Part shown: positions 9,595-15,173 of the stretch, piece after piece | How positions within the stretch are numbered: position 1 is the first letter of the stretch | How the letters are laid out: every line of letters begins with the position of its first letter | From: Nitrospirales bacterium | GTDB lineage: Bacteria > Nitrospirota > Nitrospiria > Nitrospirales > UBA8639 | Reading direction: 5' to 3' | DNA length: 42,463 nucleotides | NCBI GenBank assembly: GCA_029261295.1 | Contig: JAJDBP010000011.1 | Location: 1-42,463, forward strand | Notes under the pieces: model-generated | Seen by the model: only the letters and a program-made list of their open reading frames with translations | The model's database searches: none | Told to the model about the DNA's origin: nothing | Position numbers and translations under genes: made by a program

Positions 9595-10167
9595 TTAGAA
9601 CCCGTACCTGAGTTCAAGAAAATGAAGATCGACCCCACGGTTATTTGTCCCATAGATCGTGGCATCGGAAAAATGCTGGAACCTCCAGCCAACGGTGATC
9701 TTTTGCGGAAAATGATAACTCAATCCTCCATGACCCAGAATTTGCACAGGACCTCCAAAATCTTGATCGCCAAAGGTTTCATCGCCGACAAATACGGCCC
9801 CTGTCCCAATCTCAAAAGTAAGGTTCCAATCCCACTTCGTGATCCCGAGTCCCGGCCCTAATGATGCAATAAATCCTTTGTCACCAGCGGCCTTTAGGAC
9901 TCCCGCTGAGCCATACCACCGATACTGGACTTCCCATCCCCTGGGCCACTCCCAACTTCCAGGAAACCCAACAATAGCGACAACATCATATTGTTGAAAA
10001 TCTTCTTTCTCTCCTGGAGGAATTCCCCCTGGGTCTAAGTTAAGTCCTCCCCGAACCCCTAGCGAAATGATCTCTAACTTTTTTGGTTCTTGACTGTAAC
10101 TCTCAGGAGGTAAACAGAGAAGGGCCCCAAATGATAGGAGGACACAAAGTTTTGTAAGTTGAGACAT
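9595..10167 (-). CDS. PagL-like lipid A 3-O-deacylase / acyloxyacyl hydrolase family, outer membrane
   Basis: 190 residues from ATG 10167, chosen because AAAGGAA lies about 5 bp upstream and the protein then starts with a signal peptide (MSQLTKLCVLLSFGALLCLP, cut near SYS-Q). An upstream in-frame ATG at 10254 adds an unlikely leader. The mature part has the alternating hydrophobic pattern of a small beta barrel (YDVVAIVGF, GWEVQYRWYG, WNLTFEIGTGAVFVG). The C-terminal QHFSDATIYGTNNRGVDLH corresponds to the PagL motif with catalytic His and Ser, followed by a terminal Phe (LELRYGF), the usual outer-membrane ending. PagL removes the 3-O-linked acyl chain of lipid A and so alters surface properties. 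Confidence 0.82.
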   Translation of the reverse strand: MSQLTKLCVLLSFGALLCLPPESYSQEPKKLEIISLGVRGGLNLDPGGIPPGEKEDFQQYDVVAIVGFPGSWEWPRGWEVQYRWYGSAGVLKAAGDKGFIASLGPGLGITKWDWNLTFEIGTGAVFVGDETFGDQDFGGPVQILGHGGLSYHFPQKITVGWRFQHFSDATIYGTNNRGVDLHFLELRYGF

Positions 10168-10523
10168 AGAATTTCCTTTGCGCATTGATCTCTTCTGAGT
10201 TGCCATATCTAGATAGCTATAGGCTTCTGGCTCACACGCACCCACATTCGCCAATATTAATGTAGACCAATCATCGCAAGAGGGGAGTCAAGGCATGAGC
10301 AAAAACGAGAGGGAATATTGCGGAAGCGTCACCGTCCCTAAAACGTCTCGAGAGCCACAACGAACTTAGAAAGCGCAGCTCATCTAAGGTTGATTCTCAT
10401 CTACGGTACCATACATTTCAATCCAGACAAGAAAAATCTCAATACCTTCCACGGACGAACTCTGGAAAAGTCCTTTATTCTCGATACTGTTGCGATTGAA
10501 TCTCAAAGATTTCAAAAAGACGA
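10168..10523. other. Intergenic stretch between two minus-strand genes
   Basis: About 350 bp upstream of the PagL-like gene and downstream of the 186-residue unknown protein gene. No credible reading frame or terminator is visible. The promoter of the PagL-like gene should lie in 10190-10300, but I cannot point to clear hexamers. Confidence 0.4.
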
Positions 10524-11321: not shown

Positions 11322-11372
11322 GCATTAAAATTTTTTGTTCCTACAAACCACCTTATCTCCAGGAGCCCCAAA

Positions 11373-12647
11373 ATGCCCAGACCAATTTCACGACTCAAAG
11401 GTCAAAGTCTACAAATTATTTGGTGGACAATGGCATGCTTCATGTTGATAGAAGGTTGTGTGAACTTTTCCCCATCGCGTTCATACGAGAATACCCTGAT
11501 TAACTATGAAGCAGCCTCGGGATTATCGACAAATGGCCTTGCAGGACAAACTCTAACGATTCAAGCAAACCAGCCGTGGCAAAAATCAGGTATGCATGTT
11601 TCTCCAGGAAGTACCATTAAAATCCTTGCCATAGGAAAATGGAGCCAAGCTCCAGCCTTCAATGTCTGGAGCGGACCAGAAGGACTCGCCGGGACGGGAA
11701 AAGAAGTTCCATGGGTCAAGGCGAATGCACTCATGGGAAAAATTGGAACTGAAGGACACCCTTTTGAAGTGGGGCCTGAGCGTGAGCTTCGTGCCACCAG
11801 AGAAGGAGAACTGTATTTTACCATTAACGATCCCTTCGACTGGGTAAAAGATAACTCAGGATCAATGCAAGTGACCGTCTATTTGCAATCAGGGACAGGG
11901 GCTATGCCAAAAGATCAATCTCCAATACAGGTTCAAACCCCTACTCCCAAACGCACAATAGAACAGACCAAACGCACCGCCTTGATCATTGGAAATAGCC
12001 ACTACGAAATCGGCGAATTAAGAAACCCTCAGCACGATGCCCAAGACATTGCCCATACTCTCAAACAACAGGGCTTCGCTGTCACTCTTCAGCTCGATAG
12101 CACACAGGAGCAAATGGAAAAAGCTATCAGTGATTTCGGCAGAACACTCTATCAAGGAGGCGTGGGGCTGTTTTATTATGCCGGACATGGTGTCCAGGTA
12201 GATGGAGAGAATTACTTAATTCCAGTTGGAACATTCATCGAAAGTGAAAGCGATGTGCGCTATAAAGCCGTCAATGTGGGCCAAATTTTAGGAAAAATGG
12301 GCGAGGCGAGAAATGGACTCAACATCGTGATCTTGGATGCCTGCCGGGACAATCCCTTCTCTAGTGGGTTTCGATCGAGTACTCGTGGACTTGCCGTGGT
12401 TGGTAGTGTTACGGCCAAAGGCACTCTCATTGCCTACGCCACCAGTCCTGGCAAAGTCGCCAGTGACGGCGAAACTCGAAATGGGCTCTACACCAAACAT
12501 CTCTTGAAAAACATCCAAACCCCAGGGTTACCCGTCGAGCAGGTCTTTAAACGTGTGTTACAAGGAGTCGAACAAGAAACCAACGGCAAACAATCTCCAT
12601 GGACCTCCTCGTCTTTTTCCGGCGATTTTTATTTCGTAAAGGAATAG
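11373..12647 (+). CDS. Lipoprotein with LecA-like lectin domain and caspase (C14) domain
   Basis: 424 residues. The signal ends in the lipobox LIEGC (Cys29), so it should be membrane anchored outside the cytoplasm. Residues about 57-172 follow the PA-I galactophilic lectin (LecA) fold: VSPGSTIKILAIGKWSQ, NVWSGPEG, ALMGKIGTEGHPFEVG and INDPFDWVKDNSGSMQVTV. The last retains the ND...DNSG pattern that in LecA binds calcium and sugar. Residues about 200-424 are a peptidase C14/caspase domain: ALIIGNSHY, LRNPQHDAQDIAHTLKQQGF, catalytic His272 in YYAGHG and Cys324 in LDACRDNP, then ATSPGKVASDG. AGGAG (11361-11365) lies 7 bp before the ATG. Bacterial caspases cut after basic residues and act in stress and cell-death pathways; an extracytoplasmic, sugar-binding version is unusual. 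Confidence 0.87.
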   Translation: MPRPISRLKGQSLQIIWWTMACFMLIEGCVNFSPSRSYENTLINYEAASGLSTNGLAGQTLTIQANQPWQKSGMHVSPGSTIKILAIGKWSQAPAFNVWSGPEGLAGTGKEVPWVKANALMGKIGTEGHPFEVGPERELRATREGELYFTINDPFDWVKDNSGSMQVTVYLQSGTGAMPKDQSPIQVQTPTPKRTIEQTKRTALIIGNSHYEIGELRNPQHDAQDIAHTLKQQGFAVTLQLDSTQEQMEKAISDFGRTLYQGGVGLFYYAGHGVQVDGENYLIPVGTFIESESDVRYKAVNVGQILGKMGEARNGLNIVILDACRDNPFSSGFRSSTRGLAVVGSVTAKGTLIAYATSPGKVASDGETRNGLYTKHLLKNIQTPGLPVEQVFKRVLQGVEQETNGKQSPWTSSSFSGDFYFVKE

Positions 12648-13226: not shown

Positions 13227-15173
13227 ATGGCTACCAGTCCTCCCCTTATCCAACCCGCTTCTTTCGGAGCGAATCAGGTTGACCAAATTTCTCCTGACCC
13301 TACAGCCGATTTCAGCGCATTTGGGACAAGAGTCGCGCTAGTCACCATGCCGTTCTCGTATTCAAAGTTTCCCTCCATTCAATTGGGTACCCTTTCAGCC
13401 CTCCTAAAATCACAAGGAATCGGGGCCAAAACTTACCACTTCAATTTGCAATTTGCCCATAAAATCGGGGTGCCCCTCTATGAAATATTGTGCGAAAAGC
13501 GCGGCCTGTTTGGCGAGTGGCTCTTTTCAGCCCTCCTTTTCCGTGACAACCCTAAACATACCCAATATCCTCAGGTTTTCAAACCCATCTTTGAAGACAC
13601 CGCTCGCGAAGCTGGCTGCTCCATTGGCCATTTGGAAGAGATCGCTCGAACCATTGCTCCACAATTTTTAACGTCGATTCTGACCACCGTAGAGTGGGAT
13701 CAATACGACGTCGTAGGGTTTACCTCGACCTTTGATCAAAACGTCGCCAGCCTTTCCTTGGCCAAATTAATTAAAGATGTATATCCAGACATTCGCATTG
13801 TCTTTGGTGGGGCCAACTTTGATGGGGAGATGGGACTCGAACAATTTCGCGCGTTTTCTTGGATTGACTACGTGGTCAGTGGAGAGGGAGAGCACTCCTT
13901 TCCTCCTTTAGTCAAACAAATTTTGCTGAAACAGGAAACTGATATTCCCCCGGGAATTGCTCATCGAAAAGAAAACGAGATTTGCTTTACTCCCAATGAC
14001 GAGTTAGTCACGAAATTTGACCAGGCTCCACCACCAGATTACGACGACTACTTTGCCGATTTGAACGAATTAGACCGCCAGGGATCAACAGGACTTAATC
14101 GGATTTTGCTCTATGAAGGATCTCGAGGTTGTTGGTGGGGCGAGAAACATCATTGCACCTTTTGTGGGCTCAATGCACAAGCGATGGATTTTCGAGCCAA
14201 GTCTCCGACACAGGTTGCCTCCGAGCTGGAATATCTCTCAAGCCGATACGACACCAGTCGATTCCGATTGGTGGATAATATTATTGACATGAAATATGTA
14301 GACGGGTTGTTTGCCCAGTTTGCCGAACGGCACGTGGACCTTGATGTCTTCATGGAGACCAAAAGCAATCTGAATAAACGGCAAATAAAAACGTTAGCTC
14401 AGGGTGGAGTCAAATGCATGCAACCCGGGATTGAAAGCCTCAGCCAAGCGCAACTCAAGGAAATGGATAAGGGAGTCAGCCCCCTACAGAACCTTCAGTG
14501 TTTGAAGTGGAGCCAGTATTACAATATCGATCTGTCTTGGAATATCTTATTGGGTTTTCCTGGCGAAACGAATGACGATTACGAGCGTCAAATGAAATTA
14601 ATTCCTCGTTTACTTCATTTCCAGCCGCCAGAATCTACCTCAAAGTTATGGTTGGAGCGGTTCAGCCCTTATTTTAAATGGCCAGAACGATATGGCATTC
14701 GTCTCACTGGGCCTGGTCTCGCCTATGAATATGTCTACGATGCGCGAAAAGTGGATTTGAACAAAATCGCGTATGATTTTGAATATGACATTGATTGGAA
14801 GGTGGACCCTCGTGTTTACGAAGAATTTGTCCGCCTCGTTCAGGGGTGGAAAGAACGATATCACTCCCCGAACCGACCCTTTCTCTTTTTTTCAAAAGCT
14901 CTGAGCTATCTCACCGTGTACGATGGACGCGGGGTAAATCCAACCAGTGAACGATTTGACCAGCCATATGCCTTTATTCTGGAGTTTTGCAACGACCAGC
15001 CCAAGTCCTTTGAGCAAATTCGAAAAGGCCTTCAAGACCAACCACATGCTGATTCAGAGCAAGAAATACGACCACTCGCGGACCTTCTCACTACCCTTCA
15101 AAACAAACAATTGGTATATGAAGAAGGGGGCCGATATTTCACATTGGCCTTGCCAGTTAACCCACACCGTTAA
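13227..15173 (+). CDS. B12-dependent radical SAM enzyme, RiPP-maturation type (C-methyltransferase-like)
   Basis: 648 residues. The N-terminal part (about 35-235) is a cobalamin-binding-like domain: RVALVTMPF, QLGTLSALLKSQG, YDVVGFTSTFDQN, IRIVFGGANFDG, YVVSGEGE. The radical SAM part starts at YEGSRGCWWGEKHHC with Cys302, Cys310 and Cys313 for the 4Fe-4S cluster; the C-x7-C-x2-C spacing and the string CWWGEKHHCTFCGLN are those of the RiPP maturation radical SAM protein 1 family (TIGR03975-type). RLVDNIIDMKYV and WNILLGFPGET are further family motifs. These enzymes methylate or otherwise modify precursor peptides. It follows the pterin dehydratase by 6 bp. No precursor peptide gene is evident nearby, so substrate and product are open. 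Confidence 0.88.
   Translation: MATSPPLIQPASFGANQVDQISPDPTADFSAFGTRVALVTMPFSYSKFPSIQLGTLSALLKSQGIGAKTYHFNLQFAHKIGVPLYEILCEKRGLFGEWLFSALLFRDNPKHTQYPQVFKPIFEDTAREAGCSIGHLEEIARTIAPQFLTSILTTVEWDQYDVVGFTSTFDQNVASLSLAKLIKDVYPDIRIVFGGANFDGEMGLEQFRAFSWIDYVVSGEGEHSFPPLVKQILLKQETDIPPGIAHRKENEICFTPNDELVTKFDQAPPPDYDDYFADLNELDRQGSTGLNRILLYEGSRGCWWGEKHHCTFCGLNAQAMDFRAKSPTQVASELEYLSSRYDTSRFRLVDNIIDMKYVDGLFAQFAERHVDLDVFMETKSNLNKRQIKTLAQGGVKCMQPGIESLSQAQLKEMDKGVSPLQNLQCLKWSQYYNIDLSWNILLGFPGETNDDYERQMKLIPRLLHFQPPESTSKLWLERFSPYFKWPERYGIRLTGPGLAYEYVYDARKVDLNKIAYDFEYDIDWKVDPRVYEEFVRLVQGWKERYHSPNRPFLFFSKALSYLTVYDGRGVNPTSERFDQPYAFILEFCNDQPKSFEQIRKGLQDQPHADSEQEIRPLADLLTTLQNKQLVYEEGGRYFTLALPVNPHR

Follow-up and report, generated by a model that had tools for sequence, protein, structure and literature searches.

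LecA (PA-IL) from Pseudomonas aeruginosa and PllA from Photorhabdus are single-domain, tetrameric galactose lectins. A 2024 study described EclA from Enterobacter cloacae as the first case of a LecA domain joined to a second domain (PMC11875179). The LecA domain of EclA (EclA-N) is the N-terminal half of a two-domain protein, and the second half is a fucose-binding CBM-like lectin. Although EclA-N retains its calcium, it fails to bind galactose, and no specific ligand has been identified for it (PMC11875179). The closest solved relative of the protease discussed below is the paracaspase MALT1 (C14B), which is eukaryotic and cytoplasmic and also carries death and Ig domains. Its acidic residues Asp365, Asp462, and Glu500 read the P1 arginine (PMC4357240). 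In prokaryotes, a survey of 671 metacaspases reported many extracellular-type domains (PMC3501461).

Here we describe a protein that carries a LecA fold and a C14 caspase in one chain. It is encoded in the window, the stretch of 42,463 nucleotides that was analysed, which makes up contig C3 in a Nitrospirales genome of 4.06 Mb. Like EclA it begins with a LecA domain; unlike EclA, which has no protease and for which a lipobox is not reported, it continues into a caspase. The reading that we favour, by a modest degree, is that of an envelope-tethered, Arg/Lys-specific C14B protease whose position would be set by a calcium-dependent LecA-fold module. Each of the two parts is known already; their combination appears to be undescribed in the open-access literature.

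Architecture of the LecA-caspase protein

The reading frame is intact from its ATG at 11373 to the TAG stop that ends at 12647. The features are listed below, all on the plus strand.

11361..11365, plus strand: AGGAG, ribosome-binding-like as read from the sequence, 7 nt upstream of the ATG
11373..12647, plus strand: LecA-caspase ORF, whole gene, 424 aa and stop, with signal peptide, LecA-fold domain, linker, and C14 caspase
11373..11456, plus strand: signal peptide, residues 1-28, with an R3/R7/K9 n-region, hydrophobic I15-M24, then LIEG before the Cys
11457..11459, plus strand: Cys29, candidate lipidated cysteine, followed by Val; G28-C29 invariant in 7 orthologs
11541..11888, plus strand: LecA (PA-IL)-fold domain, residues 57-172, with a profile match to 1l7l and a model match to LecA
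11700..11714, plus strand: K-E-V-P-W loop, residues 110-114, at the position of the LecA sugar-specificity loop in the ortholog alignment
11826..11861, plus strand: calcium-site loop N152-D153-PFDWVK-D160-N161-S-G163, with the spacing of EclA Asp114/Gln118/Asp121/Asn122 and of LecA
11889..11969, plus strand: flexible linker, residues 173-199, pLDDT 45-68, variable in length
11970..12635, plus strand: caspase (Peptidase_C14) domain, residues 200-421, with a PF00656 match and a MALT1 fold match
12036..12038, plus strand: Asp222, counterpart of MALT1 Asp365 (S1 pocket, P1 Arg) in the phmmer alignment, invariant
12186..12188, plus strand: catalytic His272, aligned with the MALT1 catalytic His, invariant
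12336..12344, plus strand: Asp322 (counterpart of MALT1 Asp462) to catalytic Cys324 in the MALT1 alignment, invariant

When the full-length protein was compared with the PDB by phmmer, residues 66-175 matched LecA-family lectins (6ygq, 30ew, 5odu) independently of a match of residues 200-377 to MALT1 (E 4e-17). A single-sequence search with the N-terminal domain alone returned LecA-family proteins in the first three places (E 7.5e-4 to 2.4e-3), with EclA-N (6ygq) as the best match, and a profile built from 18 relatives ranked LecA 1l7l (E 9e-5), LecA 3zyb, PllA, and EclA-N ahead of all other PDB sequences. The resemblance to LecA clearly exceeds chance. An AlphaFold model of the domain (129 residues, pLDDT 91.5, pTM 0.86) superimposed on LecA with a Z of 15.9 and 1.7-1.8 Å over 112 residues, on PllA with a Z of 14.6, and on EclA-N with a Z of 13.9; Foldseek concurs. 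All six LecA-family entries outranked the other folds, the best of which was an M60 peptidase at Z 8.7, and the LecA-like fold that the initial annotation had proposed for residues 57-172 was thus recovered. Identity to LecA and PllA is ~26%. The PF07828 score of 16.9 bits (20.7 for the best ortholog) lies below the gathering cut-off of 22.5, so LecA membership rests on the profile and fold evidence; together with the calcium site these argue for a divergent relative of LecA and not a standard Pfam member. A wider PF07828 search across the order gave weak matches only, and these were to the orthologs.

The caspase domain was recognised by PF00656 with 138 bits against a cut-off of 21.4 (E 5e-40, residues 200-420), and the full-length model matched MALT1 with a Z of 27.5 and 2.5 Å over 213 residues. 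The catalytic residues had been assigned correctly in the initial annotation: His272 (YYAGHG) and Cys324 (LDACRD) are invariant in the 7 orthologs, as are Asp222 and Asp322. The two aspartates correspond to Asp365 and Asp462 of MALT1, which belong to the acidic trio responsible for reading P1 arginine, and would fit cleavage after Arg or Lys. No clear counterpart of MALT1 Glu500 was found in the alignment; a residue nearby, Asp365 in the numbering of the LecA-caspase protein, is invariant. Among exported prokaryotic homologs (metacaspases/orthocaspases), a "caspase family protein" on roseobacter plasmids shares 47-49% identity over the caspase domain and also has a signal peptide, but it lacks the LecA-fold domain and carries a C-terminal extension.

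The full-length model (pLDDT 82.9, pTM 0.58) falls below a pLDDT of 50 at residues 185-195, and the two modelled domains are therefore beads on a flexible string whose mutual position is not predicted. Among the orthologs the linker varies in length by up to ~11 residues, and one of its 27 residues is invariant. Profile, fold, and conservation thus bear out the proposal of one protein with a LecA fold and an intact caspase dyad. The independent modelling of both folds and the invariance of the catalytic and the two S1 acidic residues speak for the envelope protease proposed above.

Calcium site, sugar loop, and the role of the LecA-fold domain

The pattern N152-D153...D160-N161-S-G is present with the spacing of LecA, and D153, D160, and N161 are invariant in the 7 orthologs. 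The ND...DNSG motif pointed out in the initial annotation therefore holds, the ligands being kept at the same D-x6-D-N spacing as D114, D121, and N122 of EclA. These residues make a calcium site likely, and a site for a ligand is plausible. The sugar loop differs from that of LecA. The stretch is shorter (GLAGTGKEVPW), and KEVPW is invariant in the orthologs. The sugar-reading residues of LecA are His50 and Gln53, which lie in the stretch that matches residues 104-115, and no His or Gln of this kind occurs in residues 104-115 here. PllA, a galactose binder, likewise has no His in that stretch in the phmmer alignment. The domain had been called galactophilic, a description that is not supported because the sugar-reading His and Gln are absent from a loop replaced by the conserved K-E-V-P-W, and because EclA-N, which has the same D...DN calcium pattern and likewise does not keep the galactose-reading residues, does not bind galactose. 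The lack of a clear ligand for EclA-N despite its bound calcium, in the best-studied LecA fusion domain, also counts against an envelope protease that is positioned by ligand binding.

The conservation within the domain is uneven. In the binding-face loops, whose borders were our own choice, 19 of 31 residues are invariant, compared with 26 of 97 in the rest of the lectin domain (Fisher p 6e-4), as expected of a kept ligand site. Over the whole domain 45 of 128 positions are invariant, against 142 of 221 in the caspase domain. This lower conservation, and the commonness of exported caspases in Nitrospirales, would fit an ordinary exported C14 protease in which the N-terminal domain acts as a passive spacer and has no function of its own; since calcium ligands and binding loops have been selectively kept among orthologs that are 60-70% identical, we consider a spacer improbable.

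The main rival has the same anatomy as the positioned envelope protease, minus the sugar. Here the LecA fold would be a calcium-stabilised dimerisation or structural module that pairs and activates caspases, as with MALT1. EclA-N is dimeric, with calcium bound but no ligand identified for it, and LecA and PllA form tetramers (PMC11875179). In MALT1, which is the nearest caspase of solved structure, dimerisation and the binding of substrate bring about activation (PMC4357240). The loop at residues 104-115, devoid of sugar-reading His and Gln, fits a dimerisation module as well, but the conserved surface consists of the ligand-side loops, and we regard this alternative as less probable. It is more doubtful that calcium-dependent glycan binding brings copies of the tethered C14B protease together as clusters or dimers and thereby activates them. 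Such a protein would be a receptor-protease with sensor and caspase in one chain outside the cytoplasm, and its processing of envelope or neighbouring-cell proteins is equally doubtful. The kept calcium-ligand spacing, the conserved binding face, and the long, variable, low-confidence linker are in favour of an envelope-tethered protease that is positioned by its LecA-fold domain.

Export, lipidation, and the exported caspases of Nitrospirales

The N-terminus begins with basic residues, continues into a hydrophobic stretch, and scores with the exported controls from the window (TolB, Pal, PagL). In the hydrophobicity test it lies above the cytoplasmic controls, of which MiaA came near the threshold. 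A helix is predicted at residues 11-27 in the full-length model, and a hydrophobic N-terminus is present in all orthologs. The lipobox that had been proposed is a more mixed case. The strict PROSITE-type pattern, [LVI][ASTVI][GAS]C, fails at Cys29 of the window copy, as LIEGC has Glu27 at position -2, and it matches this copy solely at Cys22, which is not conserved. The aligned Cys satisfies the pattern in 4 of 6 orthologs, and Gly28-Cys29 is invariant. The signal peptide and the Gly-Cys pair thus stand, and the lipobox of the window copy is imperfect; across the family lipidation is likely, but it is less certain in this copy, since Glu27 breaks a pattern that most orthologs fit. The Glu at -2 also speaks against the tethering of the protease to the envelope. 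Cys29 is not followed by Asp, which by the E. coli rule would send the protein to the outer membrane. A lipoprotein can face the periplasm, and the outward-facing LecA-caspase protein of the initial annotation is a putative one.

The initial annotation had considered bacterial caspases to be usually cytoplasmic, which fails in this order. Signal-like N-termini were found in 22 of 29 caspase loci sampled across Nitrospirales, several of them with lipoboxes. The other caspase ORFs of the window genome all start with hydrophobic signals, and the roseobacter caspases, which are the nearest in the plasmid collection, start with signal peptides. An exported caspase is therefore not odd but the rule in Nitrospirales, and this is in favour of an envelope protease. 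Two adjacent exported caspase ORFs were observed at 143000-153000 of contig C22 in genome G000 (locus L061), where one reading frame, open over 1626 codons, has two matches to caspases and a weak one to DUF4384.

For the protein studied here, the signal peptide would carry the chain through the inner membrane, and Cys29 would probably be lipidated, most likely leaving the protein on the outer membrane. The flexible linker would then keep the metacaspase/paracaspase-type (C14B) cysteine protease beside the LecA-fold domain, with the protease cutting after Arg or Lys via the His272-Cys324 dyad. The LecA-fold domain may take one calcium and an envelope or matrix ligand through its conserved face, a glycan being the first guess, and may in this way set the position of the protease and possibly the pairing of two copies.

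Distribution of the gene, its locus, and LecA-like domains elsewhere

Six relatives share the architecture, with 60-70% identity over the full alignment. Those relatives that are named are MAGs with the label Nitrospirales or Nitrospirota, one of which is a nitrite-oxidiser bin. Among the 48 family genomes, 7 (including the window genome) have an intact LecA-caspase gene and 2 have rearranged relics; no full-length match was found in 295 genomes sampled from the rest of the phylum. In the two relic genomes, G013 and G017, the first third of the gene is present at the same site, followed by a break that overlaps an inverted piece of the region around the HGVQVDGENYLIPV active site (L028 8900-10500 and L029 2890-3772). 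The inverted fragment is common to the two species. Stand-alone lectin versions in these genomes were considered and ruled out, as both relics have the inverted piece of the caspase active site at the break. The gene is dispensable. The same genes for a pterin dehydratase, a radical SAM enzyme, and MltD adjoin it in most loci, and from this shared synteny it is read as vertically inherited. A phage origin of the lectin domain was rejected, with no match in phage records, and so was a plasmid-borne LecA-caspase, with 266 matching plasmid records and none that covers 80% of the query.

In the window the neighbours are a PagL-like gene and genes for the pterin dehydratase, the radical SAM enzyme, MltD, and Tol-Pal. 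No conserved operon partner lies beside all orthologs, which counts against the favoured envelope protease. The PagL-like lipid A deacylase gene (9595-10254, minus strand) adjoins the locus and keeps its synteny in several relatives. The radical SAM gene (13227-15173, plus strand) directly follows the pterin dehydratase gene and encodes a RiPP-maturation radical SAM C-methyltransferase (TIGR03975, 616 bits against a cut-off of 282). It is syntenic in most LecA-caspase loci and is a remnant of ~70 aa in G013. Three DUF4384 proteins are encoded near the LecA-caspase gene in G001 and G010 (L024 8034-11780 and L027 3137-6820) and not at the other loci; of the L024 genes, which were tested, two have lipoprotein-like starts. 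The roseobacter caspases also adjoin DUF4384 or OmpA-family genes, a possible association of envelope caspases with DUF4384.

The locus bears on two further alternatives. The predicted lipid anchor, the lectin fold, and the protease could together form a surface protease that is gated by sugar and directed against neighbours, phages, or foreign proteins, and a PADLOC caspase model gives a weak match (32 bits). That match is confined to the caspase domain, the annotated neighbours include no gene for defence, secretion, or immunity, and the location is conserved with housekeeping-like synteny, all of which makes an attacking role quite improbable. A check for a caspase-type anti-phage defence system likewise found no defence gene or sensor partner among the annotated neighbours. 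The initial annotation had further suggested that the protein triggers cell death from the periplasm. The caspase domain with its intact dyad would fit an executioner of programmed death, and extracellular or fratricidal roles have been speculated for prokaryotic metacaspases (PMC3501461). The window locus, however, has no regulator, toxin-antitoxin, or STAND partner, and most of the family either lacks the gene or carries a broken one (7 of 48 genomes have it intact). A cell death role is unlikely, a periplasmic executioner is the least credible of the alternatives, and the suggestion found no support.

LecA-like domains were also found on other proteins, in a scan of the collection with two peptide patterns. 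They are C-terminal on GMC oxidoreductases of Pseudomonas and a gammaproteobacterium (L039, L040, L041, L043, L044) and inserted within tyrosinases of Hymenobacter and Flavobacterium (L045, L047, L049). These domains share 25-44% identity and the ND...DN.G pattern with the one described here, but they belong to redox enzymes and have 11 residues between ND and DN instead of 6. A more distant C-terminal LecA-like domain occurs in related Nitrospirales on Tle1-like phospholipase proteins with membrane segments, which were found by a family-level search (L074 1248-3233, minus strand; also L075 and L077). The survey of domain pairing that had been proposed found the caspase joined to a LecA-like domain only in Nitrospirales proteins, within the reach of the two patterns, and further LecA-caspase fusions may exist outside the order. 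The LecA-like domain is a mobile accessory domain, of which we found no mention in the literature, and a LecA fusion is moderately odd. Its occurrence on oxidoreductases, tyrosinases, and a Tle1-like phospholipase is as expected of a positioning module.

Given the fusions to several enzymes, LecA is better viewed as a single branch within a positioning module that is widespread. Should ligand binding gate the caspase, the LecA-caspase protein would offer a simple one-chain system in which to ask how caspase control worked before death domains. Exported caspases are normal in the whole order, and this weakens the default link of bacterial caspases to intracellular cell death.
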